A stretch of 64,000 nt of DNA from Candidatus Methanocrinis natronophilus (GTDB taxonomy: Archaea > Halobacteriota > Methanosarcinia > Methanotrichales > Methanotrichaceae), in contig JARFPK010000008.1 in assembly GCA_029167045.1 (NCBI GenBank), positions 1-64,000 of the forward strand, read 5' to 3'. How positions within the stretch are numbered: position 1 is the first letter of the stretch; each line of letters opens with the position of its first letter. The position numbers and the translations under genes are program-made. Of the stretch, positions 32,689 through 50,992 are shown piece by piece. The notes below the pieces were generated by a model, which searched no databases, had not been told where the DNA came from, and was given only the letters and a program-made list of their open reading frames with translations.

Positions 32689-32784
32689 GAGAGCTAAGGG
32701 GCTTTCGATATATGATATTTATCGCGGCATCAGCCACATAATACCCACGGCGATCTCTGCTCCATCGAGCTATCCGGGAAGAAT

Positions 32785-32820
32785 GTTCGATCCCTGGCGG
32801 GTTTTTTCCTGGCTTGCAAC
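32785..32820 (-). repeat. Degenerate terminal CRISPR repeat
   Basis: This copy is 36 bases and begins GTTCGATCC instead of GTTTCAATCC, then is identical to the others. The change falls at the 3' end of the inferred transcribed repeat. Such decay marks the oldest end of an array. Confidence 0.85.
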
Positions 32821-35800
32821 TCGATAGAGGCGCGATATAGATCGATCAATTCACCCGTTTCAATCCCTGGCGGGTTTTTTCCTGGCTTGCAACGACGAAT
32901 CCAGGGTTCTCTACTCCGTCCCCATGATCTGTTTCAATCCCTGGCGGGTTTTTTCCTGGCTTGCAACATAATGTCCTGGCGGTGAGGTCGGTTGACGTTC
33001 CCTTGTTTCAATCCCTGGCGGGTTTTTTCCTGGCTTGCAACATAACAGACTCGAAAATCTGCAAATCATGCGAAGAGGGGTTTCAATCCCTGGCGGGTTT
33101 TTTCCTGGCTTGCAACTATGGCCTCTCGGAGAGCGACCGCCCCTTCGTATCCCAGTTTCAATCCCTGGCGGGTTTTTTCCTGGCTTGCAACCCAGGAGGG
33201 GGTGAGATGACCTCCTCGGCGATAGAAGAAGTTTCAATCCCTGGCGGGTTTTTTCCTGGCTTGCAACGGCAGGTACTCGGAATGTTTACGTCGGAGGTCA
33301 TCTATGGTTTCAATCCCTGGCGGGTTTTTTCCTGGCTTGCAACTCGGCCAGCCCGTCGCCCTTCCATCCGTCCCCTCCTCTGTTTCAATCCCTGGCGGGT
33401 TTTTTCCTGGCTTGCAACTCGAGGCGGTTCACGAGATGACCGGCCTTCCGTTCCGTTTCAATCCCTGGCGGGTTTTTTCCTGGCTTGCAACTTTTGCCCC
33501 GACGCCCCGGACGGGCTCGCCTTCGAGTTTCAATCCCTGGCGGGTTTTTTCCTGGCTTGCAACGGTGATGAGATGCCTCAAAAAGCATGGAAGAGTAAGT
33601 TTCAATCCCTGGCGGGTTTTTTCCTGGCTTGCAACGGCCACGGCATCCGAAAAATTGACAAAGCGGCTTGGTTTCAATCCCTGGCGGGTTTTTTCCTGGC
33701 TTGCAACATGATGGCGACAATCTGCTGGAGGGCCTGGCGAGCTGTTTCAATCCCTGGCGGGTTTTTTCCTGGCTTGCAACGGCTCGCCGATGGTTACGGG
33801 TGCGGCTGCGGGCTTGATGTTTCAATCCCTGGCGGGTTTTTTCCTGGCTTGCAACGGAGGGAGCGGGCCTGAGCCATCAGGCCGAGATAGGGTTTCAATC
33901 CCTGGCGGGTTTTTTCCTGGCTTGCAACTAAGCGGCTTGGGATCAGAATGAAAGACGTTGATCCGTTTCAATCCCTGGCGGGTTTTTTCCTGGCTTGCAA
34001 CCTGTAATCATCGTCGGATTCGCCGCCACGCCTCCTTGTTTCAATCCCTGGCGGGTTTTTTCCTGGCTTGCAACTCGGCGGGATCTACGCGGCCGTGACG
34101 GTCGCTTATTCTACGTTTCAATCCCTGGCGGGTTTTTTCCTGGCTTGCAACCAATTCTCGGCGGTCGAACTGTCGCCGAGGACCCCGCTCGTTTCAATCC
34201 CTGGCGGGTTTTTTCCTGGCTTGCAACGTATCATTTTAATGGGGAAACGTGGAACGAGGTACAGCGTTTCAATCCCTGGCGGGTTTTTTCCTGGCTTGCA
34301 ACGAGGCTATCAGGATGCCATGGTCGCCGGCGTCCATCGGTTTCAATCCCTGGCGGGTTTTTTCCTGGCTTGCAACGTCGAGTTCATCTCGATAACGTCA
34401 TCCAACTATGCTGTTTCAATCCCTGGCGGGTTTTTTCCTGGCTTGCAACGATATATCCCAGCCTTCGTCACGTCGGAGATCTGTTTCAATCCCTGGCGGG
34501 TTTTTTCCTGGCTTGCAACAAATCGGCGAAGACAACGCCAGACTATTGAACTCATGTTTCAATCCCTGGCGGGTTTTTTCCTGGCTTGCAACCGAAAGCC
34601 CTGAAGCTCGCCGTCGGGAAGGTGATCGTTTCAATCCCTGGCGGGTTTTTTCCTGGCTTGCAACGACGGCTGCCTGAGACATTAAGCAATTGTGTACTTG
34701 GTTTCAATCCCTGGCGGGTTTTTTCCTGGCTTGCAACTGAGGGTGGCTCCAGCGATCGGCGCAGTCCAGGATTGGTTTCAATCCCTGGCGGGTTTTTTCC
34801 TGGCTTGCAACTCGGGCGATCTTAGATGGACTGAAGGCAGTAGGAAGTTAGTTTCAATCCCTGGCGGGTTTTTTCCTGGCTTGCAACCAAACATTTCTTT
34901 GTGGGAACACCTACGGTGGACATAGTTTCAATCCCTGGCGGGTTTTTTCCTGGCTTGCAACTAACCTCGAGGGGCATCTTGCGTTCCGGGGGCTGTTCGT
35001 TTCAATCCCTGGCGGGTTTTTTCCTGGCTTGCAACGCCCGAGACGGCCAGGGTGCGTTCGAGGTTCTCCATGGTTTCAATCCCTGGCGGGTTTTTTCCTG
35101 GCTTGCAACTCGCCATACCCGCGTCGGTGGCCGGGACGATCGATATAGTTTCAATCCCTGGCGGGTTTTTTCCTGGCTTGCAACTCGACAGTCCGGCCAA
35201 ACTTGCAATGTCGCCACTGTTTCAATCCCTGGCGGGTTTTTTCCTGGCTTGCAACAATAAATTAGATAATGGTTTAACAATAAGATCAGATCTGTTTCAA
35301 TCCCTGGCGGGTTTTTTCCTGGCTTGCAACACGTTGAAGCCCCCCGGAAGGCGGTCTATGACATGGGTTTCAATCCCTGGCGGGTTTTTTCCTGGCTTGC
35401 AACGCCGAGTTCGGTCGGCATCAGCATATCGCCCAAAATGGTTTCAATCCCTGGCGGGTTTTTTCCTGGCTTGCAACGAGGTACGTCGGGGATTGGTCCC
35501 CTCGTATCCTCAAGTTTCAATCCCTGGCGGGTTTTTTCCTGGCTTGCAACTGAACGCCGAGTTTGATCCCGGTCAGTTCAAGAGCGTTTCAATCCCTGGC
35601 GGGTTTTTTCCTGGCTTGCAACCCGTAACTCGATAATACACATGTTGGTGATCGGCGTTTCAATCCCTGGCGGGTTTTTTCCTGGCTTGCAACGATGGAG
35701 AGGAGGAAGCCTACTTCATCGATGTGGTGGTTTCAATCCCTGGCGGGTTTTTTCCTGGCTTGCAACGAACTTATGATGGTCCGGGGTGGGGAACAGGTCC

Positions 35801-36797
35801 CGTTTCAATCCCTGGCGGGTTTTTTCCTGGCTTGCAACTTATGCTGGTAGTTGATGATAAGATTCCGGTTGGATAGTTTCAATCCCTGGCGGGTTTTTTC
35901 CTGGCTTGCAACAGATGCTGACCAACCGTAGCCGCCGTTGTTCTGTAGTTTCAATCCCTGGCGGGTTTTTTCCTGGCTTGCAACAACACTACTTCTACAT
36001 CAACCCCATCTCAATAAGATTGTTTCAATCCCTGGCGGGTTTTTTCCTGGCTTGCAACCATGACGTATATGGGTAGAGGTGAAAATATCATGGATGAGTT
36101 TCAATCCCTGGCGGGTTTTTTCCTGGCTTGCAACGATATCGGCGAGGAGAATTCGCCTCTCTGCCAGTTCGTTTCAATCCCTGGCGGGTTTTTTCCTGGC
36201 TTGCAACGGCACTCGATGTCGGAGGAATGGGTCATCAATATTTGTTTCAATCCCTGGCGGGTTTTTTCCTGGCTTGCAACTCAATTGTGGGGTAGGGCAC
36301 TCTGGATCTACCAGAGAAAGTTTCAATCCCTGGCGGGTTTTTTCCTGGCTTGCAACTGGAAAGCTTGATTAGATGCTAGGCCAATAAATGGTTTCAATCC
36401 CTGGCGGGTTTTTTCCTGGCTTGCAACTTAGTTATTTTTATGTTTTTGTGGTTAGGTATGTTGTTTCAATCCCTGGCGGGTTTTTTCCTGGCTTGCAACG
36501 CATTGACAGAGTCCTGAATTGAGTATCTGTCAAAGTTTCAATCCCTGGCGGGTTTTTTCCTGGCTTGCAACTTGGCGACGTGGCCGGGCCCGGTATGCTG
36601 GCCCTCTTAGGTTTCAATCCCTGGCGGGTTTTTTCCTGGCTTGCAACTTCATGAAGTCCTGCGTCCGGGAATACTCATTCTCTGTTTCAATCCCTGGCGG
36701 GTTTTTTCCTGGCTTGCAACCCGATTTGGCCCAAGTGGTAGCGCAATCGTCCGAATACCAGTTTCAATCCCTGGCGGGTTTTTTCCTGGCTTGCAAC
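32785..36797 (-). CRISPR. CRISPR array, 55 repeats and 54 spacers, type I-D associated
   Basis: Counting along the sequence gives 54 identical 37-base repeats, starting at 32857, 32931, 33005 and so on to 36761, plus one altered repeat at 32785-32820. Spacers are 33-40 bases, mostly 35-39. As printed the repeat starts GTTTCAATCC and ends GGCTTGCAAC. The functional strand is inferred to be minus: that gives the ATTGAAAC 3' end used as a crRNA 5' handle in many archaeal systems, the altered repeat then lies at the leader-distal end, and the TATA box and cas genes lie at the other end. The repeat has no good palindrome; instead CCTGGC occurs twice around a T-run of six. No duplicate spacers were noticed. 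Confidence 0.97.
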
Positions 36798-36908
36798 GGC
36801 ACCCCTCAATTGGTCATTTCTCGATATAAAGCCTTCTAATTGCCGGAAAATCGGGCCTCTAATCATGGACCGTTCCCGTACCCTGAGTTTATAAACGTCC
36901 ATGAACCA
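36798..36908 (-). promoter_or_regulatory. CRISPR leader and promoter
   Basis: The 111 bases between the last repeat and the cas2 stop. On the minus strand TTTATATC at 36823-36830 is preceded by purines and would start transcription near 36800, almost at the first repeat. A second TTTATAAA lies at 36888-36895. The whole spacer is AT-richer than the repeats. The position next to cas2 and opposite the degenerate repeat identifies it as the adaptation end. Confidence 0.65.
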
Positions 36909-37175
36909 TCACAACACGTTCGACTTCTTCTCGGGAGATCTCTCTCCAATATCCTCGATATTTTTGACGCAGTGCTCGCAGAGCCTATAGATCCGGACCT
37001 TATCCCCCGACCCGATCTGGGCCTTAATCTCGTCCTCCATCATCACCCTCTGAACAGCGTCGATCTCCAGCTCGAAGACGCTGTACTGCTTCCATGCTCC
37101 GTACTTTTCCAGGATCTTGTATACTCGCGTCCGGATCCTGTTCTCGCTGATGTCGTAAGCCACCGCCAACCTCAT
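36909..37175 (-). CDS. cas2: CRISPR-associated endonuclease Cas2
   Basis: An 88-residue Cas2. It begins RLAVAYDISENRIRTRVYKI, where the Asp of the first strand is the conserved metal residue, and continues EKYGAWKQYSVFELEID and DKVRIYRLCEHC, the ferredoxin-like fold. Cas2 dimers bridge Cas1 dimers in the spacer-integration complex. It is the last gene of the cas operon, ten bases after cas1 and directly upstream of the leader. Confidence 0.95.
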   Translation of the reverse strand: MRLAVAYDISENRIRTRVYKILEKYGAWKQYSVFELEIDAVQRVMMEDEIKAQIGSGDKVRIYRLCEHCVKNIEDIGERSPEKKSNVL

Positions 37176-37185
37176 AACGCCACCC

Positions 37186-38184
37186 TCATCGTTTGAACTT
37201 AAGGGGATAGTACTCTTTCAGCTCCCCTGTGATCGCCTTTCGCAGGAGGATCGATTGCATCCTCACGGCTTTTCTCCTCGATACGACGTAGCCGAACCTC
37301 GGATGGGTGAACTCTTCCTTCATGAGCTCATCAAATTTTTCTAGATATTTCTTGAAGGCGTAATCCTTGAGGTGGTTATTGATCTGAAAGTCGTCGTGGG
37401 TCAGAATCCCCTTGTTCACAAGCCGGACGGCGAAGGCATCGCAGAATATGGGCCGAAACTCCTCCAGCAGGTCGAGGGCGAGAGACGGCCGACCATGGCG
37501 ATCGGCATGGAGGATCCCGAGGAAGGGGTCGAGGTTGTATTGGCGCAGGGCGCTCAAGACCTCGTTCTTCATCATCGAATAGGTGAGCGAGAGGAGGGCG
37601 TTTATATGGTCCTCCGGCGGCCGGCGGGTCCTTTTCTCGAAGGTCCACCCCTCGGCGAGGCAACCGTCCAAGAGGGAGAAGTAGAGCCGCGCCGCCTCCC
37701 CCTCGATCCCCCGCAGGCCGTCCATCGTATCGGCGCCGGGGGCGAGAGACTCCAGCTCCGCCAATCTCCCGCCGTCAGCCTCGGCGGTTACCCCCTTCCG
37801 GCCCAGAAAGGTCCGCGAGTTTCTGATCTTGGCTCGGACGATTTCGCCTGCGATCCTGAGCCCCTCCTCTTCGGTGAGGGCGTACTGCCTGCGGCGGACC
37901 TCGGCGATGGTGTTTTTCTCGGGAACGAAGCTTCCCCGATACCGGCCATACGAGGTGAAGTAGTTCAAAACGATCCCGTGCTCGTTCGCCCGGGCCACAA
38001 AAGGGGTCGTGAAGTTGACATTGCCGAAGATGTTGACGGTATCCACCTGGCCCATGGGAAAGGAGCCTATCTCTCCCTCTCCGGCGGCGAAGACGACGAT
38101 CCGGCCGCCGTCCACCCCCACCTGGGCGCCCTGCCTCGTCACGTAAACTACGCTGTCGTCGAATAGACCCTCGCTCGCCTTCAT
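37186..38184 (-). CDS. cas1: CRISPR-associated endonuclease/integrase Cas1
   Basis: A 332-residue Cas1. The N-terminal beta domain has VYVTRQGAQVGVDGGRIVV, then FTTPFVARANEHGIVLNYF. The catalytic helical domain contains GIEGEAARLYFSLL (Glu near residue 163), ILHADRHGRPSLALDL (His near 224) and LLEEFRPIFCD (acidic residue near 238), the three metal ligands. It integrates new spacers at the leader end with Cas2. It overlaps cas4 by four bases. Confidence 0.97.
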   Translation of the reverse strand: MKASEGLFDDSVVYVTRQGAQVGVDGGRIVVFAAGEGEIGSFPMGQVDTVNIFGNVNFTTPFVARANEHGIVLNYFTSYGRYRGSFVPEKNTIAEVRRRQYALTEEEGLRIAGEIVRAKIRNSRTFLGRKGVTAEADGGRLAELESLAPGADTMDGLRGIEGEAARLYFSLLDGCLAEGWTFEKRTRRPPEDHINALLSLTYSMMKNEVLSALRQYNLDPFLGILHADRHGRPSLALDLLEEFRPIFCDAFAVRLVNKGILTHDDFQINNHLKDYAFKKYLEKFDELMKEEFTHPRFGYVVSRRKAVRMQSILLRKAITGELKEYYPLKFKR

Positions 38185-38804
38185 GATCTCGCCCTCCTCC
38201 TATCTCTAGCTTTTCTGCTCCCGCTCCGCCGCTCCAGCTCCAGCATCCTCGTCTCGAAGGGCATGCAGTACTGGACGGTGCTGCACTTCTCGCATTTGTT
38301 CGGGTTATCTGCGAAGTCTGGTATCCTCTCCAGGCTCATCCTCCGGATCGCCTCAGCGGTCTCGATGACCTTCTCGCGGTGCCAGTCGGTGATGGTGATG
38401 GCGTACCGCTCGTTCGTCCCGAAGAGGTAGAGGTATCCCATCCTCACCGGCTCGCCGATGTGATCTTCCAGGAGCATGCAGTAGGCTGCGAGCTGGACCT
38501 CGTCGTTGTCGTGATAAGAGCTACCGCGTTTTCTCTCGATAGGGGTTAAAACGAGATCAGAACTAAGGAAACTCTTGCTCTCCAACACGTCTATCTTTCC
38601 GTGAAGGCCGAGCTTTGCAGATCTTAGATAAAGCTCCCGAATCCATCCACCCCTTCTCGACTGACTCTTGTGCTTCAACAGACCATCTTTGAGGTAGTAG
38701 TTCATCTCAATCGTATCAAAATAATTAATGTAGTAAAACCTGCGAGGACAATAGAGAAACTGGTTTATGTCGCCCACGTTCACCAGATCATCGTCGCCGA
38801 GCAT
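38181..38804 (-). CDS. cas4: CRISPR-associated exonuclease Cas4
   Basis: A 207-residue RecB-type nuclease. NVGDINQFLYCPRRFYYINY gives the first Cys of the Fe-S cluster, KIDVLESK and IERKRGSS the acid and Lys of the nuclease core, and NPNKCEKCSTVQYC the C-terminal cluster Cys residues. Cas4 trims and orients prespacers by their PAM. A basic Arg-rich tail follows (RDRRRARS). It overlaps the cas3' gene by 17 bases and cas1 by four. Confidence 0.94.
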   Translation of the reverse strand: MLGDDDLVNVGDINQFLYCPRRFYYINYFDTIEMNYYLKDGLLKHKSQSRRGGWIRELYLRSAKLGLHGKIDVLESKSFLSSDLVLTPIERKRGSSYHDNDEVQLAAYCMLLEDHIGEPVRMGYLYLFGTNERYAITITDWHREKVIETAEAIRRMSLERIPDFADNPNKCEKCSTVQYCMPFETRMLELERRSGSRKARDRRRARS

Positions 38805-40917
38805 GCTCCTCCTTTATTAGACAATCGATGTAGAGGGCGTTATGTCCGAAACAGACGCTTCTCATCCCCGAATAAGGATAGAGGTAGAAGAAATCCCCCA
38901 AATTGAACTTGGCCTTTAGAGAGAAGCTGTTCTGATCCACCAAACGAGCAAAGATCTCATGCTCGGAGAGCGTTTCGTTGAGAGAAGAAAGGCTCGGGAT
39001 GTTTGGCTCAGTCTCCACCGCAAAGCCGCTGATCATCCGCGGTTTTCTCGCGTGATCTACCGAATTGAACATCATCCCCTTGTAATGAGCAGGGGATTCT
39101 CCTTTAAAGAGGACCTTTCGAGGCTCTTCGAGCGTTCCACAATACCAGCAGAAACCAGCTGCAAAGGGCCTTCTCGCTTCATATCTAGGCTTGAGAGTCT
39201 TTTCGTAACCAGGTCCAACACCATCTCTTAGCCTTCTCGCAAACTTCTGGGGCGACATGAACTCGACTTTTCCTCGCCTGAGAAGATACATCAGATCGTA
39301 AAGCTTCAGCTGAGAATCGGTCTTATCGAACATCAAAGCCTGAAGGCTATCTCCACGGTAGCTGGTGAGCCCTTTCTTCAGCCTTGAAGACTCATACTGG
39401 AAGTATTCCCATTTTTGGCCATCGATCTTCTCGTCGAGGAAGTGTTTCTCTAGGATTGCGAGAGTCCTGACCCATTCCTCTCCCTGAATAGATTCAGGCA
39501 TGCCCTTTTCGCGATGATCCCGGCCAGACTCATCCCTCCATACATCACCCCTTATCCTCGATGAAAGATACAGGAACGCCTCTAACGGCGAATAGGTCTT
39601 CGAGTACATTGAAAGATCGATCTCCGAGTCCATCACCCGTCCCAGGTGGCGCACCAGCTCTTCACGAGTCAAACTTCCGCCTTGACCTTTGAGGTGATCA
39701 AAAACTGTCTCAGGCACGAAACATTTAGCATCGCACACCTCCAAAGGGGGCTTGTTTCTCAAACGGCCTATTCTCTGCAGAAGGCTGCTCTTAGAATAAC
39801 CCGTGAAAACCAGCCGATCCACGTTGAAATCGATGCCCACCTCCACCGAAGAGTTGGAGACTAGCACGTCGAAGTCACTCAATTTATCCGGCGTAGCTGG
39901 ATGCAATCCGTCAACTCGCTCGACCTGGAAATTGAAACCACCTAATTTGTCTGAAAGACATTTGAATATCTCGTCTACTTCATAAATTCCGTCGACGATA
40001 AAGACCGTTTTCGCTTTTCTGCCATGACATGGTCTTTTACAAAAATCAATGAAATAATCCAGATCCTCTTTGATCAGCTCGTAGGTCTTGTATATCGATC
40101 CGCTTCTAACCTCAAGATTCAACTTGGGCAGTACGGCTCGCCCCTCAGAACTTGATAGCGGAGTGCTAGTATCGTTTAGTACCTCGACGTTCAAGCCTGC
40201 CTTTCTCGCCCTCTCGACGATCTTTTTGTTTGGAGTGGCACTCAAGAAGAGGAATTTTGATAGACGACTTCTCACGTCATCTTCGATCTCGTTCATCATG
40301 AAGAGCAGCATGTCGCTCTGTTTGACAGAGGCCAGATGGAACTCGTCCACCACGATCATGTCTACGCTTCTTACCGCTTCTCTGAGGTTGTGATCACGGT
40401 ATGCACCCTTCAACGCCAATGTGAGGATGTCAGGGTTCGTGAGCAGGATCAGACCCCGTCTTTTTCCTTTTTGGATAACTCTGTTTAGAAGCTGTCCTTT
40501 TCTGAGTCCGACCTCGTCGGGATACAGTTCCCTCTCTTCCTCAAGAAGATCGCTAGTGACCGCTTGGACGTGGTAATCCCTGGGATTGTATCCGTATTTC
40601 TTTATCGACTCGTTAACCTGCTTTTCCTGATCGATCACCAGCGCATTCGTGGGATATACAGCTAAGACCTTCATCTTTTCGTCCAGCACAGGTTTGAGCC
40701 AAGAGAGGGTCTTTCCGGAGCCGGTAGGGCTATGATTGAACAGGAAAATGGACTTGCAGTCCTCGTCTTTGATCAGTCGCTCAGTAGATACCTGATGTTT
40801 AAAGGGCTTAATATCTCCGCAGTAATCTTGATCCAGACATTCGAGTCTCAGACCATCCAGACTCAGAAAAAAATGATCAGCAACGCTTTTTTCATCAGAT
40901 GATCCTGTAGAACTCAT
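38788..40917 (-). CDS. cas3: Type I-D CRISPR helicase Cas3' (no HD domain)
   Basis: A 709-residue superfamily 2 helicase. Motif I is HSPTGSGKTLSWLKP, motif II VVDEFHLA (DExH), motif III LFLSATPNK, and motifs V-VI SNSSVEVGIDFNVDRLVF and LLQRIGRLRN. There is no N-terminal HD nuclease: the protein starts about 50 residues before motif I. That is the type I-D arrangement, in which the HD nuclease is carried by Cas10d. The C-terminus contains Cys (CWYCGTLEE) that could bind zinc. The ATG overlaps the csc1 stop by four bases. Confidence 0.94.
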   Translation of the reverse strand: MSSTGSSDEKSVADHFFLSLDGLRLECLDQDYCGDIKPFKHQVSTERLIKDEDCKSIFLFNHSPTGSGKTLSWLKPVLDEKMKVLAVYPTNALVIDQEKQVNESIKKYGYNPRDYHVQAVTSDLLEEERELYPDEVGLRKGQLLNRVIQKGKRRGLILLTNPDILTLALKGAYRDHNLREAVRSVDMIVVDEFHLASVKQSDMLLFMMNEIEDDVRSRLSKFLFLSATPNKKIVERARKAGLNVEVLNDTSTPLSSSEGRAVLPKLNLEVRSGSIYKTYELIKEDLDYFIDFCKRPCHGRKAKTVFIVDGIYEVDEIFKCLSDKLGGFNFQVERVDGLHPATPDKLSDFDVLVSNSSVEVGIDFNVDRLVFTGYSKSSLLQRIGRLRNKPPLEVCDAKCFVPETVFDHLKGQGGSLTREELVRHLGRVMDSEIDLSMYSKTYSPLEAFLYLSSRIRGDVWRDESGRDHREKGMPESIQGEEWVRTLAILEKHFLDEKIDGQKWEYFQYESSRLKKGLTSYRGDSLQALMFDKTDSQLKLYDLMYLLRRGKVEFMSPQKFARRLRDGVGPGYEKTLKPRYEARRPFAAGFCWYCGTLEEPRKVLFKGESPAHYKGMMFNSVDHARKPRMISGFAVETEPNIPSLSSLNETLSEHEIFARLVDQNSFSLKAKFNLGDFFYLYPYSGMRSVCFGHNALYIDCLIKEEHARRR

Positions 40918-41711
40918 CTCTTCCCCTTTAAAAGTTCAAGCTTATACGGAAGAATAACGCTTTCGTTCTCATCGGCTTGCGAGATTCGCACAAACTTGCC
41001 TCTGTAACGTCCCTGAATTATCAGCGGGGCAGGTCTCATCCGAACCGAGATCAAATCCCCTAAAGGCACTCCGTCGTAATCGTATATTCCAAAGGGATGA
41101 TTGGTGGTAAACTCCCCTTCTTCGATCTTTCCATCAACGACTCTCGTTTTAACCCTGGCTTTTGATCTCTTCTTTCCGATCCTGACGTACCTTGGAATTC
41201 TAGACGTGATCGAATCGGCATCCGACTCATAAGGGATGATGTATGCGGTTAGGAGGTTCTGTTGATCAAGCACCCTTTCGCGACCGAACTTCGGCAGGTT
41301 CTTCCCTTTAAGCGACTTGGGCAATTCGTTTGCCTTCCAGTTTTTTACCGCATATCGATGAGATCGCGCGTTCCATTGACTTGTGGAATGGCCTCCTATA
41401 TAGGGCAACTGCATCCTCTTTCCAAGATATCGGGTGGAGATGCCTAGAACCTCTTTCACGTATTCTTCTACTGGTTCAGGCTTCGCAGGAGTTATGTAGA
41501 ACTCCTTGCAGATCTCCGCCGTATCGTCCAAATATGATGGTATTTTTCCGAAGTTTACGTAAGTCCCGGAAACAAAGCCGAAAGCGTAGTATAACGCGGT
41601 ATTTAGTATATATTCTCCAGAGTCAACTAAATCTCCGACTTCCCTCGATGCGTAGAGCGTCCTATCCAGAGTATCGATGATGCACTTCACAACAGGGAAG
41701 ATATCGCTCAT
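40914..41711 (-). CDS. csc1: Type I-D Cascade subunit Csc1 (Cas5d)
   Basis: A 265-residue Cas5-group protein. GTYVNFGKIPSYLDDTAEIC and FYITPAKPEPVEEY are the usual Csc1 segments, and NWKANELPKSLKGKNLPKFG with later basic strands fits an RNA-binding RAMP fold. It should cap the 5' handle of the crRNA in the interference complex. Its start overlaps the csc2 stop by four bases, and it leads into cas3'. Confidence 0.9.
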   Translation of the reverse strand: MSDIFPVVKCIIDTLDRTLYASREVGDLVDSGEYILNTALYYAFGFVSGTYVNFGKIPSYLDDTAEICKEFYITPAKPEPVEEYVKEVLGISTRYLGKRMQLPYIGGHSTSQWNARSHRYAVKNWKANELPKSLKGKNLPKFGRERVLDQQNLLTAYIIPYESDADSITSRIPRYVRIGKKRSKARVKTRVVDGKIEEGEFTTNHPFGIYDYDGVPLGDLISVRMRPAPLIIQGRYRGKFVRISQADENESVILPYKLELLKGKR

Positions 41712-42697
41712 TTTTTACCTCGCCCCTTCTTCTCTCCGTTCACCTCTTCGAAGAACTGGGAGGAAAGGACCCTCTGCCGTTCGAGAGACTCCTTTAGGGA
41801 TTCTGATGTCACATATCCAAGGAGTTTATCGGTCTCTTCGTCAGTTAGAGCCTCGACGTTTAGGTCTTCGATGTCATCGTCGAAAGCCTTCTTAACGTGC
41901 TTTTTAACCTTCGCGATGTCGAGGACCGGACTATAAAGAACCTTGTTCAAGCTCTCTGAGGTCATACCGCCGTTTTCCATTGCCAAACGACGTGCCACTT
42001 CTTGAGATAGGATAAGATTTGCAGGTCCCTCTTCGATCCCGTAATAGATTCCCAAAACGTGATTTTCGATTCTGCCAATTCTTGAGGTCGCCGCACCATA
42101 TCTCTTGTTCATCTTGGTGATTCCTAGGACGAAGACCAACTCGTTAAAGGTGGCATCCCTCAGCGTCACAACACAAGGAAATACGGTTCCTGGGACAATG
42201 AAATCAGGCTCCCGAATAGCTGTTGTGGCACCTTTCGCAAACTGGTCGCCAGGGGCATTCTGAAACTTCTCCTCGACAATTGCACTGGAATCCCTTATCG
42301 AATAAGCCGTGTCATACATCACCCTCGACGTGACCGAGATCGCTTCCTCCCCTGCAGCACTTCCATAAAGAATAGATTCGGGCGAATCTTGAGTCATTTC
42401 GTTGACGTTCATCGTATCCTCAATGCCGGTGAGGTTCCTCTGAAGCTCTTTGCCCTTCCTTCGGTCGCTGCCGGTCTGTTTTCGCTTGAACATCATCACC
42501 GGTGAATAGTCCACAAGCCCATCTTCGGCTCCGATTCCAACGGTGGCAATGTCTGCATCTTGCCCATTAGTTGTAAAAATGGCGCTGGACTGAAGTTCCC
42601 TAAGCAACAAGATGTGGACATAATGCGCACTTGGCTCGTTGATCAATTGTTCCACGAGACTAGACGATAACTTCTTTTTGATATCTTCAATGCTCAT
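41708..42697 (-). CDS. csc2: Type I-D Cascade backbone subunit Csc2 (Cas7d)
   Basis: A 329-residue Cas7-group protein. HILLLRELQSSAIFTTNGQD, MMFKRKQTGSDRRKGKELQR, then FPCVVTLRDATFNELVFVLG and KRYGAATSRIGRIENHVLG are the diagnostic Csc2 segments. Several copies form the filament along the crRNA spacer. A helical, basic C-terminal tail ends the protein. The start codon directly follows the small-subunit gene's stop. Confidence 0.95.
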   Translation of the reverse strand: MSIEDIKKKLSSSLVEQLINEPSAHYVHILLLRELQSSAIFTTNGQDADIATVGIGAEDGLVDYSPVMMFKRKQTGSDRRKGKELQRNLTGIEDTMNVNEMTQDSPESILYGSAAGEEAISVTSRVMYDTAYSIRDSSAIVEEKFQNAPGDQFAKGATTAIREPDFIVPGTVFPCVVTLRDATFNELVFVLGITKMNKRYGAATSRIGRIENHVLGIYYGIEEGPANLILSQEVARRLAMENGGMTSESLNKVLYSPVLDIAKVKKHVKKAFDDDIEDLNVEALTDEETDKLLGYVTSESLKESLERQRVLSSQFFEEVNGEKKGRGKK

Positions 42698-43126
42698 TTA
42701 TTTCGCCTCCTCTCTCTGAAGTTTCCTATCCTTCCAGTATTCACGACGAATGCGCAACGTAGCCGAGTAATAACCATCCGCAAGGTTGTTGGAGAGCTTC
42801 TTCAGCCGCCCAGGCTTGCCCTCGCATATGTCGTTTAATATCTGGTCCACGAAATAGTCTGCAAACTCATCGGCTTTTTTATCCACATCCTTCCTTCCAG
42901 GAACGAAAGCCTGATCGTCCCCCATCCGATCTATGGTTTTTTGGATGCGTCCAGAGACTGCCGATTTGTAATCGCTGCTGGAAAGCTTCATACCACGAAA
43001 TCCTATCACAGCTTTCACAGATTCCCGAAACAATCTCTCCACGGCATGGGGCTTGTACCCTTTTGGCTGAGCAATCTCAAAGCCCAGCTCTGCCAGCTGA
43101 TTGATCTTGTCCGATTCGCTGATCAT
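42698..43126 (-). CDS. Candidate stand-alone Cas11d small subunit of the type I-D complex
   Basis: A 142-residue helical protein. It begins MISESDKINQLAELGFEIAQ and includes FRESVKAVIGFRGMKLSSSD, then KADEFADYFVDQILNDIC and ATLRIRREYWKDRKLQREE. Its ATG lies five bases before the cas10d stop boundary with GAGGTG five bases upstream, so it is independently translated. In most type I-D loci the small subunit is made from an internal start inside cas10d; here cas10d ends at 43131 and this gene stands alone between it and csc2. The assignment rests on position, size and helical character, not on a motif. An ORF extension to 43195 is rejected because of the ribosome site. Confidence 0.7.
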   Translation of the reverse strand: MISESDKINQLAELGFEIAQPKGYKPHAVERLFRESVKAVIGFRGMKLSSSDYKSAVSGRIQKTIDRMGDDQAFVPGRKDVDKKADEFADYFVDQILNDICEGKPGRLKKLSNNLADGYYSATLRIRREYWKDRKLQREEAK

Positions 43127-43130
43127 CGCT

Positions 43131-45665
43131 TCACCTCGATCTAATTTCATCCAAAAAGATGGCCTCGTCCAGTAAATTGGAAACATTGCTCTCAACCTCT
43201 TGGACCCTGTAAGCCATCTTCAAAAGATAAGATCCTGGAAGTATCTCATCTCTCATCACCCTCAGATACTTAGGAAAAAGAGAATCTCTCAATTTCGAAC
43301 TGGTGTTGTATCCTAGACGGATCAGAGCACTGGCCGATTTTAATGTCCTCTCCAGATTGGAAAGAGATACGAACTTACCGTAGAAGTCTGCCACATGGGA
43401 GTTTACCGAGTCGAGGGCCACCACCTCATTGAAGTCCCTACCGCGGATGGAGGAAACCGGTGAGTGGCTCACAACCACCCTCATTCCCGTATAGGCAGCA
43501 ATGACCAAGGCAACGTAGACGCCAAAGAAGTGGAACTCGGTGTTGTTCTCAGAGGGCTTGTAGAAAGCGATGCTGGCATTGCCTATGAGATTTCCGTATC
43601 CCTGGGACATATACTGGGCCATGTCCATCCCTCTAGATCCATCGTCTTCCTCTTTGACGGCTAAGTCCTCGATCCAACTTTTGTGGAGATCGAAGTCTCC
43701 CTCTGTTTCGGGGGATCTGCCAACATAAGTCGAATTAAAAATTTTTCCGGCGAGAGCGGCCATTCTGATGCGAGCATCCTTATCGAATTTCAGAAGGATC
43801 GAATGAACAAGCTCCCACGATTCCGGCGTAAAAAAGTAGTCGGGTATTATGTGAAAATATAACAGCTCATTATTCGCAGCTCTACCTTTAGGCATGTTGA
43901 AGCCGTTCTTTCTCAAGACAAGCTCAACACCACAAGGTATGCATGTAAGGATGTTATCTGGCTTCGTCTTTCCTACGAAGACCCTGTTGGTGAAGTTGTA
44001 GGATAAATAGGAGTTAGAATTCTTCATCTGATCCTTATTTAATAATGTTCCACGGTTGCATAGATTACATGTCTTTCCGCTCGCCAAATATTCTTTAAAA
44101 TTATCGCTAAGATGCGATTTTTCAAGGTGTGAAATGGTACCGTTTATCGAGAGAGCTTCATGGAGATACTCAACAAATTCCATGCGATATTTGTCTGTTT
44201 TATTAGAGATGAATGCGCTCCATTCTTCCATCCCTGAAAGGCCGTTCTCTACCAAGTCAACAAGATAATTGACGGTCTCCAATACGCCAACGTTTCTCAG
44301 CTTAACCCCATCCAGCGCCTGATCTATCACAGATTGACCGATGGCATAGGAGTATTCCCACTTGCCTCCGCTCGCAAGATAGTTGGGATCTGTTTTCATT
44401 ATCCCTAAAAGGGCCGTAGTCACGTCTTCCTGCACCTTCCAGATATCACAAGTCTTCAGAAGAGCATCTCCGTTATCGGGAATCATCTCCGAGATAAAGG
44501 ACTGATGAACAGTGGCCACCGCCCTTGCGAAACCAACCAAAATCTTTTGGCCCCTTTCCGATCGGTCGAGTTCAATAGGAACTACGTGATCCGCTCTGTT
44601 GATACCATCCACGATGGAGTCTGTCAATTTCCTGCTGCTATCATCATGGGCGAAAGTTATTGATGCATCAATAAACGCCCTGATCATCGCTTTTGGACCG
44701 CTGAAGAAGTAGTACTCGTCGCTCAGTCCATAGTAGCCAAGTCTAGGAGTGTTAAGCTTTTTAGCTAAATTAACGGGATCGCTCAAAGCTGGTAATCCTT
44801 GAATATTACTCAAAAGGGCGTCGAATATCCTCTCGATCGTCTCATCAGATACAGAAATTCGTCTCGTTCCGCGGCCAAGATACACGCATCCATCTTGGTA
44901 GGCCATGAGCATGACAAGTCCGTTATCTTGCATCACATCAGCTACGGATTTGTTGATTATCCCAGAAAGGATGCCTTTTATGTCGTCCAGCCTGTGATAA
45001 TGAAGGTTCAACTGCCCTTCCTGTGAATCCTGGGGAAATCCATCACGTAGAGCCCGCAGAGACCTGGAGGATACGGCTTCCTCGGGAGATGCGCAGCTGG
45101 ACATGTTATCCATCAGATACAAGAATGGCTCCATATCCATGAAACGTGAAGTTCGCGAGCCAGGCCGGGAGAAATCGCTCTTGTGGAGGGAGACCGCAGC
45201 TGAGTGGTAGTCTTCAACCTTCAAATCTGGAGTGAAATCCTTCAAGCCCACCAAATCAACGTAAGCTTCGACGGTTTCCACAGGAATGTCGAATTCATGC
45301 TCCATAAAGTCGCGACTTTCGTCAAGTTTGTGGAGATCATGGACCACAAAGAGCGCAATGCAATCCCTGAGATCCCGCTCGTTTAGATATTGAACATTTA
45401 GCTCTTCAAGGGCAGCGTTGAACCGAAGCAGAAAGAGAATCCCATTTCGTATGTGGTTGAGCATGCTCTGGTCCGTCTTTCCAAACTCGACGCTCTTTGC
45501 GGGCTTGAAGCCCATACCCTCCTCAACGAGATGAACGTCTACCTTTTTGAGATATTCTTCGAAAAGATCCATTTTTGGCTTCGTGGACATCTGATCGATT
45601 TTAGAATACAGTTCTGTTAACCCGTCAGGGTCCCTAAGCATGTCTTTTAGCGCATCGTCTGGCAT
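43131..45665 (-). CDS. cas10d: Type I-D CRISPR large subunit Cas10d (Csc3) with HD nuclease
   Basis: An 844-residue protein. The N-terminal HD domain shows His71 (NHIRNGILFLLRF), His109-Asp110 in LFVVHDLHKLDES and YHSAAVSLHKS, so the target-DNA nuclease is here rather than in Cas3'. A four-Cys zinc finger (TCNLCNRG near residue 528 and CIPCGVEL near 575) precedes the palm-like region; no GGDD cyclase motif is seen, as expected for I-D. The C-terminus (KYLRVMRDEILPGSYLLKMA) is helical but short. GGAGGTG five bases before the ATG at 45665 fixes the start; an upstream frame to 45704 overlaps cas6. Confidence 0.9.
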   Translation of the reverse strand: MPDDALKDMLRDPDGLTELYSKIDQMSTKPKMDLFEEYLKKVDVHLVEEGMGFKPAKSVEFGKTDQSMLNHIRNGILFLLRFNAALEELNVQYLNERDLRDCIALFVVHDLHKLDESRDFMEHEFDIPVETVEAYVDLVGLKDFTPDLKVEDYHSAAVSLHKSDFSRPGSRTSRFMDMEPFLYLMDNMSSCASPEEAVSSRSLRALRDGFPQDSQEGQLNLHYHRLDDIKGILSGIINKSVADVMQDNGLVMLMAYQDGCVYLGRGTRRISVSDETIERIFDALLSNIQGLPALSDPVNLAKKLNTPRLGYYGLSDEYYFFSGPKAMIRAFIDASITFAHDDSSRKLTDSIVDGINRADHVVPIELDRSERGQKILVGFARAVATVHQSFISEMIPDNGDALLKTCDIWKVQEDVTTALLGIMKTDPNYLASGGKWEYSYAIGQSVIDQALDGVKLRNVGVLETVNYLVDLVENGLSGMEEWSAFISNKTDKYRMEFVEYLHEALSINGTISHLEKSHLSDNFKEYLASGKTCNLCNRGTLLNKDQMKNSNSYLSYNFTNRVFVGKTKPDNILTCIPCGVELVLRKNGFNMPKGRAANNELLYFHIIPDYFFTPESWELVHSILLKFDKDARIRMAALAGKIFNSTYVGRSPETEGDFDLHKSWIEDLAVKEEDDGSRGMDMAQYMSQGYGNLIGNASIAFYKPSENNTEFHFFGVYVALVIAAYTGMRVVVSHSPVSSIRGRDFNEVVALDSVNSHVADFYGKFVSLSNLERTLKSASALIRLGYNTSSKLRDSLFPKYLRVMRDEILPGSYLLKMAYRVQEVESNVSNLLDEAIFLDEIRSR

Positions 45666-46516
45666 TTGCCCACCTCCCCCACCGTCACCTCTACCCACCC
45701 GCACCCCCGGCTCACGGCGCTACCTACGCCGCTGTACTCCGCAAACCGAGAGAGGATCAGAACGGCGTTCTTCACGTCCTCCGGCGCCCCCTTGGCGAAG
45801 GAGTATCCGCACCGCCCTGAAAAGCCCTGCTTGAAGATCGGCCTTGGGTGGCCCTTGACGTTGTCGATGACGGTGTTGACGACGACGCTGTGGGTCCTGT
45901 AGGAGCGCGGGTCGGGCTTCTCGATCACGTGCCTTCCGATATCGTCCCTCTCTATACCCATCCTGAGCCCATCGGGAGAGACGGCGTTCCACTTGGCGAC
46001 GAGGGAGTTGAAGACCGCTTCTCGGTGGGGGAACATCTCGGAAACCTTGCTGTTCTTGTACTGGATGCAGGTCGGCGACTTGAACCAGAACTCCACCTCT
46101 GGATCATCGATCTCCTTAGCGGAATCGATCAGCTCCTGAAAACTGATGGAGGTGCTCTTCACCTCTTCTATCAGCAGGTCGCCCTTGTGGAGGATTATAT
46201 CCTTTTCCTTGAAGATGAGAGGGCTGATGATGGATTTGAAGATCTCCACCTCCCTCGGGTCGGTGATCCCCAAATTCAGCCCGTACCTCTCCCCCGATAG
46301 GACAATTTTGTGATGGGGGCGATCACACCTTCCAAACCTTCCCCAAAGGGGGCTGACGACGACGGAGCTCAAGGGCGAATCGTGGGCGTGTTGGCTGATC
46401 GTCTCATTGCCCTCTCTCATGACTTCAAGGATAGACGAGTAAAGTTGATACCCCTCGCTGGACGGGATTTCGAAATCTTCTCTTGGCCTTGCGATAAAGG
46501 ATATCTTCTGAGGCAT
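45647..46516 (-). CDS. cas6: CRISPR RNA endonuclease Cas6
   Basis: A 289-residue RAMP protein. It ends with the Cas6 glycine-rich loop SGVGSAVSRGCGWVEV, and GRHVIEKPDPRSYRTHSVVV with FSGRCGYSF gives the second ferredoxin-like half. A His residue in ISQHAHDSPLSS is a candidate catalytic residue. It processes the array transcript into crRNAs. It is the first gene of the cas operon and overlaps cas10d by 19 bases. The TATA box lies at 46542-46550, so the transcript may be nearly leaderless. Confidence 0.92.
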   Translation of the reverse strand: MPQKISFIARPREDFEIPSSEGYQLYSSILEVMREGNETISQHAHDSPLSSVVVSPLWGRFGRCDRPHHKIVLSGERYGLNLGITDPREVEIFKSIISPLIFKEKDIILHKGDLLIEEVKSTSISFQELIDSAKEIDDPEVEFWFKSPTCIQYKNSKVSEMFPHREAVFNSLVAKWNAVSPDGLRMGIERDDIGRHVIEKPDPRSYRTHSVVVNTVIDNVKGHPRPIFKQGFSGRCGYSFAKGAPEDVKNAVLILSRFAEYSGVGSAVSRGCGWVEVTVGEVGKCQTMR

Positions 46517-46655
46517 CTCTGACTGTCCATATTACCCCCTCATGTATAAACCTTTCTATTGGTGCATTAATTTCATTATTTCGCAATTGATATTCGGTAT
46601 TCTCATATTTCAGGGTGGGAAAGGAATTTATGCAATAGACATAATGGGATGGCAA
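46517..46655. promoter_or_regulatory. Divergent promoter region between cas6 and csa3-like regulator
   Basis: An AT-rich spacer of 139 bases. TTTATACATG on the minus strand (46541-46550) lies about 25 bases upstream of the cas6 ATG. On the plus strand AATTTATGC near 46625 could serve the regulator. It is the natural place for CARF-HTH control of the cas operon, but no clear palindrome was found. Confidence 0.55.
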
Positions 46656-47294
46656 ATGAAGACCTACATCTCCCTCTCGGGGTTTGATACCTCTCAGATC
46701 CTCTCCATGATGGTCAAATACGGAATACAAGGGGACGACAGTATTATTCTCGTCAGGCCTGAAAAGGAGACAGACGCCAGAGGCGAGGGGACCGTCCAGG
46801 CGGTCCGAGACCTGTCGATGCAGATCGATAGCTCAATAAAAGTGAAAATTCATAGGGTCGACCACCAGGATTTTGATGGTATGCTACTTTCACTTATTAA
46901 CCTAATAAAGACATCCGAGGGGGAGATAATAGCTAACATCTCCGGCGGCCCGCGGGAGATCTTCCTCGCCTTTGCCATAGCTTGCCTCACTCAAGCCCAG
47001 AATATTTGCAAGGCTACAAGCTATAGCGACATCGACCGGGTGATGAGGGAGATTGACCTCCCCAAGATCGTACAGGGCCTCGACGAAAAGTCGAAGGCAG
47101 TCCTAGTTGATGTTCGCGATAACCAGCCTACCACCATAACCGAGATGGCAGAAAGGCTCGATTCATCCGAGAGCACAATATCAAGGCATGTCGGAAGGCT
47201 TGTCGATCTCAAAGCATTAAATGTAATTCCACTCGGGAAGAGAAAGCATATTCAAACGACGTTAACGGGCAAAATTTTTCTGTTGATCGAATGA
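46656..47294 (+). CDS. CARF-domain winged-helix regulator, Csa3-like
   Basis: About 212 residues from the ATG at 46656. The N-terminal CARF domain has YISLSGFDTSQILSMMVKYG, DSIILVRPEKE and IIANISGGPREIFLAFAIAC, the ligand-loop pattern. The C-terminal winged helix has TTITEMAERLDSSESTISRH and VGRLVDLKALNVIPLGKRK. Csa3 proteins bind cyclic oligoadenylate and control cas or adaptation genes, mostly of type I-A systems. Here the gene diverges from a type I-D operon, which lacks an obvious cyclase (Cas10d has no GGDD), so a ligand, if any, would come from elsewhere. A longer frame from 46542 starts inside the promoter and is not used. Confidence 0.88.
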   Translation: MKTYISLSGFDTSQILSMMVKYGIQGDDSIILVRPEKETDARGEGTVQAVRDLSMQIDSSIKVKIHRVDHQDFDGMLLSLINLIKTSEGEIIANISGGPREIFLAFAIACLTQAQNICKATSYSDIDRVMREIDLPKIVQGLDEKSKAVLVDVRDNQPTTITEMAERLDSSESTISRHVGRLVDLKALNVIPLGKRKHIQTTLTGKIFLLIE

Positions 47295-48035: not shown

Positions 48036-48491
48036 ATAGAAAAGGTTACTGAAAGGAAGACTATGCTGGACTGGGCTTGCTTTATGGAAGAGATCCCTGC
48101 TCATTACGAACATGCAGAAAAGATAACATTGGTGATGGATAACCTCAACACGCATAATGCAGTATCATTTCATGAGAAATTCCCCCCAGATAAAGCAAAG
48201 GAGTTACTGGATAGATTTGAGTTTGTATACACACCGAAGCATGGTAGCTGGTTGAATGTTGCTGAAATGGAGTTGAATGTGCTTACTGGTCAATGCCTGG
48301 ACAGAAGAATTGACAGTATTGAAACTGTTAAGAAAGAAGCAGCGGGATGGCAAAAGTTCAGAAATAATAAAAATGCAAAGTTAAACTGGCAATTCACCAC
48401 GGCGGATGCGAGAGTTAGGCTATCTCGCCTTTATCCGACACTAGATACCTGCTTAGCGCAGATATGCCACCTACACTCTAGGGCTCGGTGA
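48036..48491 (+). mobile_element. IS630-family transposase, C-terminal fragment
   Basis: The frame reads VTERKTMLDWACFMEEI, ITLVMDNLNTHNAVSF, the second Asp of the DDE triad, then YTPKHGSWLNVAEMELNVLT with the Glu, and WQFTTADARVRLSRLYPTLD at the end. The N-terminal helix-turn-helix and first Asp are missing. On the left it is fused to antisense of an unrelated gene; on the right it abuts an IS1634-like fragment. AT content is much higher than on the left. No terminal repeats or target duplication were identified. Confidence 0.85.
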
Positions 48492-48969
48492 GCCTGACCG
48501 CCTCCTTGAACAGTTCTTTCTTGCCGATCTCCTTCAATGTAGAACTCATCTTTTGAGTAAGATTGAGATACCATGTCTTGATCTCATGCCCGAACTTGAC
48601 CTCGACCTCATTCACTCGCGATAGCTCCTGCAAAAACAAATGAGCACTTTCCCATGAATCCTCTTTTCTAGAAGCCACTTGTAGCTTCCATTGTAAAACT
48701 GCTAACAATCTATAAGCCAGCATACAAACAAAGATGTAAGCCCTCACCCGTTGTTCCAGACGATGGCGCACCGGTTCGATCTCCTCATTCGACTTCAGGA
48801 CTCGAAAAACCTTCTCGATGAAGTCTTTTTCGAGATACATATTGACAGCTTGAACTTCATCTAATGATTTATCAGTGGATATAAGCAACCATCCCCCACC
48901 GGCTTTCTGTGCTTTTTTTAGTTCGTTCTTCCTGTAGCTCCAAGCTATTCTCTCCCCCTCGGCGCTCAT
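48478..48969 (-). mobile_element. IS1634/IS4-like transposase, C-terminal fragment
   Basis: A 163-codon frame containing GGWLLISTDKSLDEVQAVNM, YLEKDFIEKVFRVLKSNEEI and EPVRHRLEQRVRAYIFVCML, the last catalytic Glu helix and following region of IS1634-type DDE transposases (Y-x-x-K-x-x-x-E-x-x-F-R). The N-terminal half with the first two Asp residues is absent. The 160 bases upstream to 49130 have no clear coding content. It touches the IS630-like fragment at its 3' end. Confidence 0.8.
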
Positions 48970-49172
48970 TTACCGCTTTTATTCAACGACTTTTCTGGCT
49001 TTGCCAGATCTTTTTCCCGTTCTCATCTCATCCAAGCGATCCATACACGCCAGCACCCTAAAGCTCACGCCACTGAACCAGCTATTCTTCGGAAAGTGCT
49101 ATAAAGGAATGCCACAGACCAGGTATCGTATTGTTCTGCTGGAAATCTGAGGATAGAGGAGAAATATATAAA

Positions 49173-50381
49173 ATGAATTGGATGATGGGATCAAACGGCA
49201 ATGAGATGCGAATGGTGAGGGAGATCAGACCACGCAATCTTCTTTCTTTTGGACCCGATACAGAGCCTATTGCCCTCGAAAGCCTGAATGTGCTCATCGG
49301 TCCGAACGGCTCTGGAAAGTCCAATCTCATCGAGGCCATCTCTCTCCTGCGCGCCGCCCCAAGCGACATCCGTGCCGTCATCCGCCAGGGCGGAGGTGCA
49401 GGCGATTGGATATGGAAAGGAAAACCCGATGGAGAGGCTTACATCGAGGTCGTCATCACCAATCCCAGAGGATCTCTGCCGCTCCGTCACCTCCTGGCCT
49501 TTCGGGAGGAAAACCAGACATTCCGCTTGGCTGACGAACGCATCGAGAATAAAGAGCCCCATCGGGATCATAATAAGCCATATTTCTACTACAGCTACCA
49601 GGACGGCAATCCGGTCATCAATGTCAGGACCGGAGAACGAGACGAACAACGTAAGCTTAAGCCGGAGACTGTCGAGAAAGATCAGTCCATTTTGGCCCAG
49701 CGGCGAGACCCTGAGGCGTATCCGGAGGTCTCATACCTGGCGAGTGTATACGATAAGATCAAGATATACCGGGAGTGGTACTTCGGACGGAACGCGATCT
49801 TCCGCGAACCGCAGAAGGCAGACATGCGCAACGATCGATTGGAGGAAGACTTTTCGAACCTGGGATTGTTTCTGAACCGGCTGCGCGGGGTGCCGAAGGC
49901 AAAGAAGGCCGTTCTTGAAGCGTTGCATGACCTCTACGAAGGCCTGGACGACTTCGATGTGAGCATCGAGGGGGGCACGGTCCAGGTCTTCTTTACCGAA
50001 GGAGATTTTACGATTCCCGCAACGAGGCTGTCAGACGGAACTCTGCGATACCTCTGCATGCTGGCTATACTGTGCGACCCGACACCCCCGCCGCTCATCT
50101 GCATCGAGGAACCGGAGCTCGGTCTTCATCCCGATATACTCCCTAAAGTGGCCGACCTGCTTAACGCCGCCTCAGAGCGCACCCAGTTGATCGTAACCAC
50201 CCACTCGGACATCCTCGTAGATGCGATGACCGAGCGGCCGGAGGCGGTCCTCGTCTGCGAGAAGCACCACGGCCAGACCGAGATTCGACGTCTCGACGGC
50301 AAGAAGCTGGAAGAATGGCTGAAAGATTATCGTCTGGGCGAACTCTGGACCCGTGGCGCACTTGGGGGGACGAGATGGTGA
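49173..50381 (+). CDS. AAA ATPase of RecF/OLD-like type (defence-island pair, ATPase part)
   Basis: About 402 residues. NVLIGPNGSGKSNLIEAISL is the Walker A of SMC/RecF/AAA_21-type ATPases, TRLSDGTLRYLCMLAILCD the ABC-like signature, PPPLICIEEPELGLHPDIL the Walker B with D-loop, and QLIVTTHSDILVDAM the H-loop. Such proteins encoded with a DUF4276 partner occur in prokaryotic defence islands. ATG 49173 is chosen, with GAGGAG upstream; other ATG codons lie just downstream and the start is not certain. The stop overlaps the next gene by seven bases, indicating coupled expression. Confidence 0.85.
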   Translation: MNWMMGSNGNEMRMVREIRPRNLLSFGPDTEPIALESLNVLIGPNGSGKSNLIEAISLLRAAPSDIRAVIRQGGGAGDWIWKGKPDGEAYIEVVITNPRGSLPLRHLLAFREENQTFRLADERIENKEPHRDHNKPYFYYSYQDGNPVINVRTGERDEQRKLKPETVEKDQSILAQRRDPEAYPEVSYLASVYDKIKIYREWYFGRNAIFREPQKADMRNDRLEEDFSNLGLFLNRLRGVPKAKKAVLEALHDLYEGLDDFDVSIEGGTVQVFFTEGDFTIPATRLSDGTLRYLCMLAILCDPTPPPLICIEEPELGLHPDILPKVADLLNAASERTQLIVTTHSDILVDAMTERPEAVLVCEKHHGQTEIRRLDGKKLEEWLKDYRLGELWTRGALGGTRW

Positions 50382-50992
50382 GCGTGCGGATATACGTTGA
50401 AGGGGGCGGCAACAGCAAGGATCTTCAATCCCGATGTCGGGAGGGGTTTAGAAAGCTAATCGAAAGGACGGGCTTTGAGGGGCGGATGCCGAGCACCGTT
50501 GCCTGTGGTGGACGCAACAAAGCCTACGAAATGTTCAAGATAGAGTTGAGATCAGCCGATGTGAATAAATTTCCGATGCTCCTCGTAGATAGCGAAGAGC
50601 CGGTTACAATGGCTCCATGGGATCATCTGAAGTCCCGCGACGGATGGGATCGTCCCGCAGGTGCGGAGGATGACCAGGCGCAGATGATGGTAACCTGCAT
50701 GGAGACGTGGATAATGGCGGATCGTGAGGCTCTGCGCAATGTTTTTGGCGCACGTTTGCGAGAGAGCGCTCTCTTTCCAGCGGAAGATTTGGAGCGCAGA
50801 TCACGGGTAGATCTGCAGGGGGCACTGAAAAACGCTACCAAGGACTGCGGCAGAGGGAAGGGGTACGACAAAGGTCGCCGTTCATTCCAGATTTTAGCTG
50901 AATTGAACCCCGAAATTCTCAAGGAGAGCTTGTCTTATTTTCGCCGTTTTATAGAAACCCTTGACAGGCACCTGCAGGAGACCAGAAGATAG
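50375..50992 (+). CDS. DUF4276 (TOPRIM-like) partner of the AAA ATPase
   Basis: A 205-residue protein beginning MVSVRIYVEGGGNSKDLQSR, the strand with conserved Glu, then TVACGGRNKAYEMFKIELRS and FPMLLVDSEEPVTM, the DxE acidic motif. QMMVTCMETWIMADREALRN and TKDCGRGKGYDKGRRSFQIL complete the DUF4276 pattern, a TOPRIM-like fold. With the upstream ATPase it forms a two-gene unit like the AbiL/OLD-type anti-phage systems. Nuclease activity is inferred from the fold. GGGGGA lies four bases before the ATG. Confidence 0.85.
   Translation: MVSVRIYVEGGGNSKDLQSRCREGFRKLIERTGFEGRMPSTVACGGRNKAYEMFKIELRSADVNKFPMLLVDSEEPVTMAPWDHLKSRDGWDRPAGAEDDQAQMMVTCMETWIMADREALRNVFGARLRESALFPAEDLERRSRVDLQGALKNATKDCGRGKGYDKGRRSFQILAELNPEILKESLSYFRRFIETLDRHLQETRR

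Follow-up and report, generated by a model that had tools for sequence, protein, structure and literature searches.

Judged by profile matches and predicted fold, the type I-D CRISPR-Cas locus of Candidatus Methanocrinis natronophilus encodes the small subunit of its effector complex, Cas11d, in a gene of its own, placed directly after a cas10d gene that lacks the C-terminal Cas11 domain. The window analysed is a stretch of 64,000 nucleotides (NCBI GenBank assembly GCA_029167045.1, contig JARFPK010000008.1, positions 1 to 64,000). In the explanation favoured here, to which a probability of about 0.88 is given, Cas10d ends in the linker between thumb and Cas11 domain, the next gene provides the Cas11 domain as a free protein, translation of the two genes would be coupled by restart, and free Cas11d would fill the complex.

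The genes lie on the minus strand as one operon in the order cas6, cas10d, cas11d, csc2, csc1, cas3', cas4, cas1 and cas2, followed by the CRISPR array (Table 1). The locus is assigned to type I-D because models specific for this subtype in NCBIfam match cas10d, csc1, csc2, cas3' and cas1. The large subunit Cas10d carries a fused HD domain (TIGR03174, 5.8e-118; HD residues present), csc1, csc2 and a stand-alone cas3' helicase all score above the cut-offs of TIGR03159, TIGR03157 and TIGR03158, and the adaptation genes cas4, cas1 and cas2 are found together with the array. Two usual traits of the subtype are absent: no Cas11 domain is fused to the C-terminus of Cas10d, and Cas11d does not arise from an in-frame start inside cas10d, its start following the cas10d stop in another frame.

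Table 1 Features of the type I-D locus and their positions in the window
Feature	Position	Strand	Remarks
cas6	45647..46516	-	289 aa; Pfam CRISPR_Cas6 4.1e-14; PADLOC Cas6/Cas6d 5.4e-120 and 9.3e-103
cas10d/csc3 without C-terminal Cas11 domain	43131..45665	-	844 aa; stop TGA at 43133-43131
GAGGTG ribosome-site-like motif of cas11d	43132..43137	-	overlaps the cas10d stop TGA; read from sequence
cas11d, separate small-subunit gene	42698..43126	-	142 aa; ATG at 43126
csc2 (cas7d)	41708..42697	-	TIGR03157 2.3e-81
csc1 (cas5d)	40914..41711	-	TIGR03159 3.1e-42
cas3' helicase of type I-D	38788..40917	-	TIGR03158 3.8e-71
cas4	38181..38804	-	TIGR00372 1.4e-27; PADLOC Cas4d 1.1e-83
cas1 of type I-D	37186..38184	-	TIGR04093 7.7e-121, above cut-off
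cas2	36909..37175	-	PADLOC Cas2d 2.5e-33
CRISPR array	32776..36840		about 55 repeats of GTTTCAATCCCTGGCGGGTTTTTTCCTGGCTTGCAAC; high end approximate

The two proteins cover complementary parts of one and the same Cas10d profile. In the PADLOC Cas10_Id profile of 964 positions, the 844-residue Cas10d covers positions 27-813 (2.5e-190) and the 142-residue protein positions 827-961 (6.1e-36); in NCBIfam TIGR03174, which has 946 positions, the corresponding ranges are 1-781 and 826-946 (2.3e-32 for the small protein). Matches of this strength are far from what chance would give. Cas10d ends in a linker after the conserved end of the thumb, with SNVSNLLDEAIFLDEIRSR as its last residues, and it is there that fused relatives continue into the Cas11 domain. 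The HD residues H71, H109, D110 and H161 and the zinc-finger cysteines are present. The absence of the C-terminal domain was judged by profile coverage; the AF2 model of Cas10d had a mean pLDDT of 45 and was left unused, and a single-sequence PDB search with this protein gave weak pieces only. The sequence-only reading had placed the genes at the same coordinates, with csc2 directly next (its start is at 42697), had seen a GAGGTG ribosome site for the 142-codon gene, found here 5 nt ahead of the ATG, and had proposed a natural split of the large- and small-subunit parts between two genes. The coordinates and the motif were right, and the split is confirmed by profile coverage and, for the small protein, by structure prediction; that the complex would be assembled from independently encoded parts is soundly inferred. 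In the split relatives L004, L007 and L008, the HD motif has H-E in place of H-D at the equivalent of D110, which may change the nuclease activity of Cas10d in these loci.

The separate cas11d is a recurrent archaeal variant and not the oddity of one lineage. In samples of species representatives, which are not a census, Cas10d was matched in 11 of 394 genomes across the phylum, four of them split (G000, G079, G052 and G126) and seven fused. Within the window's order, ten genomes matched (eight split, one fused, G281, and one fragment), and among the haloarchaea 24 of 394 did so, with 11 split, 12 fused (two of these divergent) and one fragment. G126 is the only split genome of its class, where ten are fused. 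The cyanobacterial plasmid copies are fused in 4/4 cases; the divergent archaeal loci L031 and L032 both have the split. A search of viral contigs gave no relatives, and searches of plasmids turned up no more than four records of the window's lineage, all haloarchaeal.

In a tree of Cas10d from which the Cas11 part was removed, the two states are clustered, with at least five changes between split and fused among 50 sequences; a reduced tree of 42 sequences, without long branches and outgroups, has four. The window falls inside a clade of ten sequences, all of them split. A constraint that kept the split sequences in one group lowered the log-likelihood by 353 and was rejected by the AU test (p-AU 5e-52), and a single origin for the split state is rejected with it. 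The main clades of the Cas10d tree recur in the tree of Cas11, hence the small gene has not been replaced from outside. It had been suggested from the sequence that the split may be a lineage-specific or ancestral state. This did not hold as worded, the split being found also in haloarchaea and in L031 and L032, with a single clade rejected and four to five interchanges; a survey of gene order in archaeal I-D loci found split and fused forms across the archaea sampled. An ancestral separate gene, resembling the state in type III, from which fused forms were derived repeatedly, is considered unlikely. It is in line with the split state of the deep-branching archaeal loci L031 and L032, with the position of the fused L063 and L071 among split haloarchaeal sequences, and with type III systems, in which Cas11 is encoded separately. 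Against it, the cyanobacterial outgroups and the deep haloarchaeal L113 and L114 are fused, the placement of L031 and L032, both on long branches, is uncertain, and the change counts on the tree give no direction, fission and fusion being indistinguishable by them.

The junction between the two genes is compact and varies between loci. In the window, the TGA of cas10d is overlapped by the GAGGTG of cas11d, and seven of the ten loci of its clade have the TGA inside a GG-TGA motif in which stop and ribosome site overlap. The other three are L054 and L055, with an ATGA overlap of start and stop, and L030, whose stop precedes the start by 8 nt. The ATGA overlap (4 nt) is also found in 11 of the 12 haloarchaeal split loci, the exception being L076. 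The start codon lies at the domain boundary in each split locus. All fused archaeal relatives that were examined carry an ATG in frame at the homologous position, and in one clade of these this ATG is often preceded by a strong ribosome site (e.g. GGAGGTGAT, with the reading GGTGAT); the linkers of fused relatives are homologous to the split junction region. These internal ATGs are consistent with the internal translation known from other I-D systems (PMC10212523, PMC9123187).

A fused Cas10d-Cas11 might still be produced beside free Cas11d by programmed frameshifting or stop readthrough. The cas11d frame of the window contains no stop in the 31 codons that precede its ATG, so both ORFs could in principle be joined by one frame shift within the overlap, and five relatives (L049-L053) have cas11d in the frame of the cas10d TGA. 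Among the relatives in the window's clade, most have a very short overlap of open frames. Relative to cas10d, cas11d is in frame 0, +1 or +2, even inside this clade, and the haloarchaeal junctions are mostly of the ATGA kind; one conserved signal is impossible across junctions that differ in this way. Since the frame varies between loci, conserved frameshifting or readthrough is quite improbable, and restart after termination, or else independent initiation, would be more likely on the sequence of the junctions.

In the favoured explanation of a free Cas11d made by coupled restart, ribosomes finishing cas10d at the TGA that overlaps the cas11d ribosome site would start, or restart, on cas11d. 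The free protein would fill the small-subunit positions, including the one held by the Cas10d-attached Cas11 domain in fused systems, and recognition of the target, like its cutting by Cas10d and Cas3', would otherwise be as in other I-D systems. The step from fused to split would likely be small, as an internal ATG in frame already stands at this place in fused relatives. Where this ATG stands behind GGTGAT, a short indel can bring the TGA of this motif in frame, and a shift of the ribosome-site motif by one or two bases would thus be a simple route. Fused complexes contain two free Cas11d copies (PMC9123187), and split complexes would probably contain one more than these. A wider reading, put forward tentatively and rated somewhat below even odds, is that the covalent link between Cas11 and Cas10d is dispensable and has been repeatedly gained and lost in archaeal I-D systems. 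The minor filament of split complexes would then consist entirely of free Cas11d, probably three copies compared with one attached and two free, in a ratio set not by internal initiation but by ribosomes that terminate and restart at a stop overlapping a ribosome site.

The nearest relatives of the window locus are Methanothrix and Methanoperedens MAGs, and the split is conserved in both. It is kept in all eight first-round relatives and is also found in the single-contig genome G079 and in the closed plasmid NZ_CP095009 of the isolate Halococcus dombrowskii; a sequencing error is therefore not its source. For pairs with unsaturated dS, the dN/dS of cas11d is about 0.04-0.09, pairs that include the window itself being saturated, and these estimates indicate that the gene evolves under purifying selection. 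In the window, both frames are open across their overlap, and the small protein alone resembles a cut-off Cas10d C-terminus, as would be expected of one gene broken by sequencing error or recent mutation; this is rejected, given the conservation of the split across species, the selection on cas11d and the start codon at the domain boundary locus by locus. One of the relatives, L003, comes from a record titled Mesotoga sp. MAG, and the content of its contig is nearly that of the Methanothrix locus L004; the contig is probably misbinned.

The AF2 model of the 142-residue protein has five helices (pLDDT 85.9, pTM 0.82). Its best fold match in the PDB is the free Cas11d of Synechocystis, 7SBA_J (Foldseek TM 0.74/0.72, probability 1.00, with a modest E-value of 8.1e-3), and the top six matches are all of type I-D, 7SBA_J being followed by Cas10d of Synechocystis and Sulfolobus islandicus; no unrelated fold in the PDB came close in TM-score. 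The structure prediction thus bears out the earlier proposal of a Cas11-like fold, and a different kind of fold was not found. A profile of archaeal and cyanobacterial Cas11 sequences, whose rows include close relatives of 7SBA_J, matched this chain at 1.1e-8, and a profile made from the archaeal stand-alone sequences alone ranked it first, weakly, at E 0.039. Models of separate cas11 genes from type I-A/I-E and type III gave no match to the protein in Pfam, PADLOC and NCBIfam scans. By profile and predicted fold, the protein is Cas11d; an unrelated helical accessory protein, to which the lack of any match in a single-sequence PDB search might point, is rejected by the homology to the Cas10d C-terminus (profile matches of 2e-32 to 6e-36) and by the specific fold match.

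The closest structural reference is the I-D Cascade of Synechocystis (7SBA/7SBB), which has the same subunits and the same Cas11d fold, and whose free Cas11d starts at the homologous place. There, however, the Cas11 domain is still attached at the C-terminus of Cas10d, and Cas11d is translated from an in-frame start within cas10d (PMC9123187, PMC10212523), whereas the window has a separate gene. The Cas10d of S. islandicus (6THH/6YES) is archaeal like that of the window, and one of the best fold matches is to its C-terminal Cas11 domain. It is a fused protein of 847 residues with the Cas11 domain at 720-847, and its small subunit of about 14 kDa was thought to come from an internal start (PMC7689449); the likeness in length to the 844 residues of the window's Cas10d is a coincidence. 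The I-D locus of H. dombrowskii on NZ_CP095009 has the gene order of the window, with a cas10d of 833 aa followed by a small-subunit gene of 145 aa. The two Cas11d proteins are about 40% identical, and the junction there is an ATGA overlap, unlike the ribosome-site overlap of the window. A small subunit with its own gene is also found in type I-A/I-E and type III, which are other subtypes (PMC11899642, PMC7694759).

The PADLOC model PDLC01194 (stand-alone Cas11d, CAS-I-D effector_SS) likewise describes a separately encoded I-D small subunit. It identified the gene adjoining cas10d in L032 (7e-25), which our own Cas11 profile had missed. The model represents a divergent branch, present in 3 of the 394 genomes of the phylum; it gave no match to the window protein up to E = 1 and none in the genome of the window at E <= 0.001. 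A separate I-D small subunit is therefore already recognised in this curated set for a divergent branch, and the claim to novelty is lowered by the match in L032. In the literature searched, a separate cas11d in the Methanothrix and haloarchaeal lineages appears to be undescribed, and split loci may be mentioned in the original work on internal translation and interference in I-D systems. The small-subunit gene was stated to be missing from I-D operons (PMC3150331), type I-D was said to be without a cas11 gene (PMC7689449), and internal expression of Cas11d was described as widely conserved in all Cas10d groups, including archaeal ones (PMC10212523). Given how common the split form is among the sampled archaea, the rule of internal translation and no cas11 gene is not general for I-D.

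The split form is hidden by annotation, in which the small protein is named Cas10d/Csc3. On NZ_CP095009 (L064, 5956-8891), RefSeq gives the name cas10d/Csc3 to both neighbouring genes, the one of 145 aa being Cas11d. Such naming is explained by the cut-off of TIGR03174, which at 60 bits is low enough to admit small subunits; the 142-residue protein scores 112 bits. Natural pairs of related fused and split systems allow the role of the covalent link in stoichiometry, PAM-triggered movement and nuclease activation to be asked. Cas11d must be supplied separately for some I-D systems used in eukaryotic cells (PMC10212523), and natural versions encoded by separate genes are available for this subunit.

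Several other features lie near the operon. A Csa3-like regulator with CARF and helix-turn-helix domains (46542-47294, plus strand; Pfam Csa3_N 1.2e-13) is divergent from cas6. Transposase-like remains are found near the end of the CRISPR region at 48478-48969 (minus strand) and about 48150-48490 (plus strand), and a Pfam scan of the 163-residue transposase-like piece gave no confident match. A few kb away from the CRISPR operon, an AAA ATPase gene (49131-50381, plus strand) and a DUF4276 gene (50315-50992, plus strand) match the PADLOC candidate defence proteins HEC-01A (2.7e-181) and HEC-01B (2e-72) and form a candidate pair.
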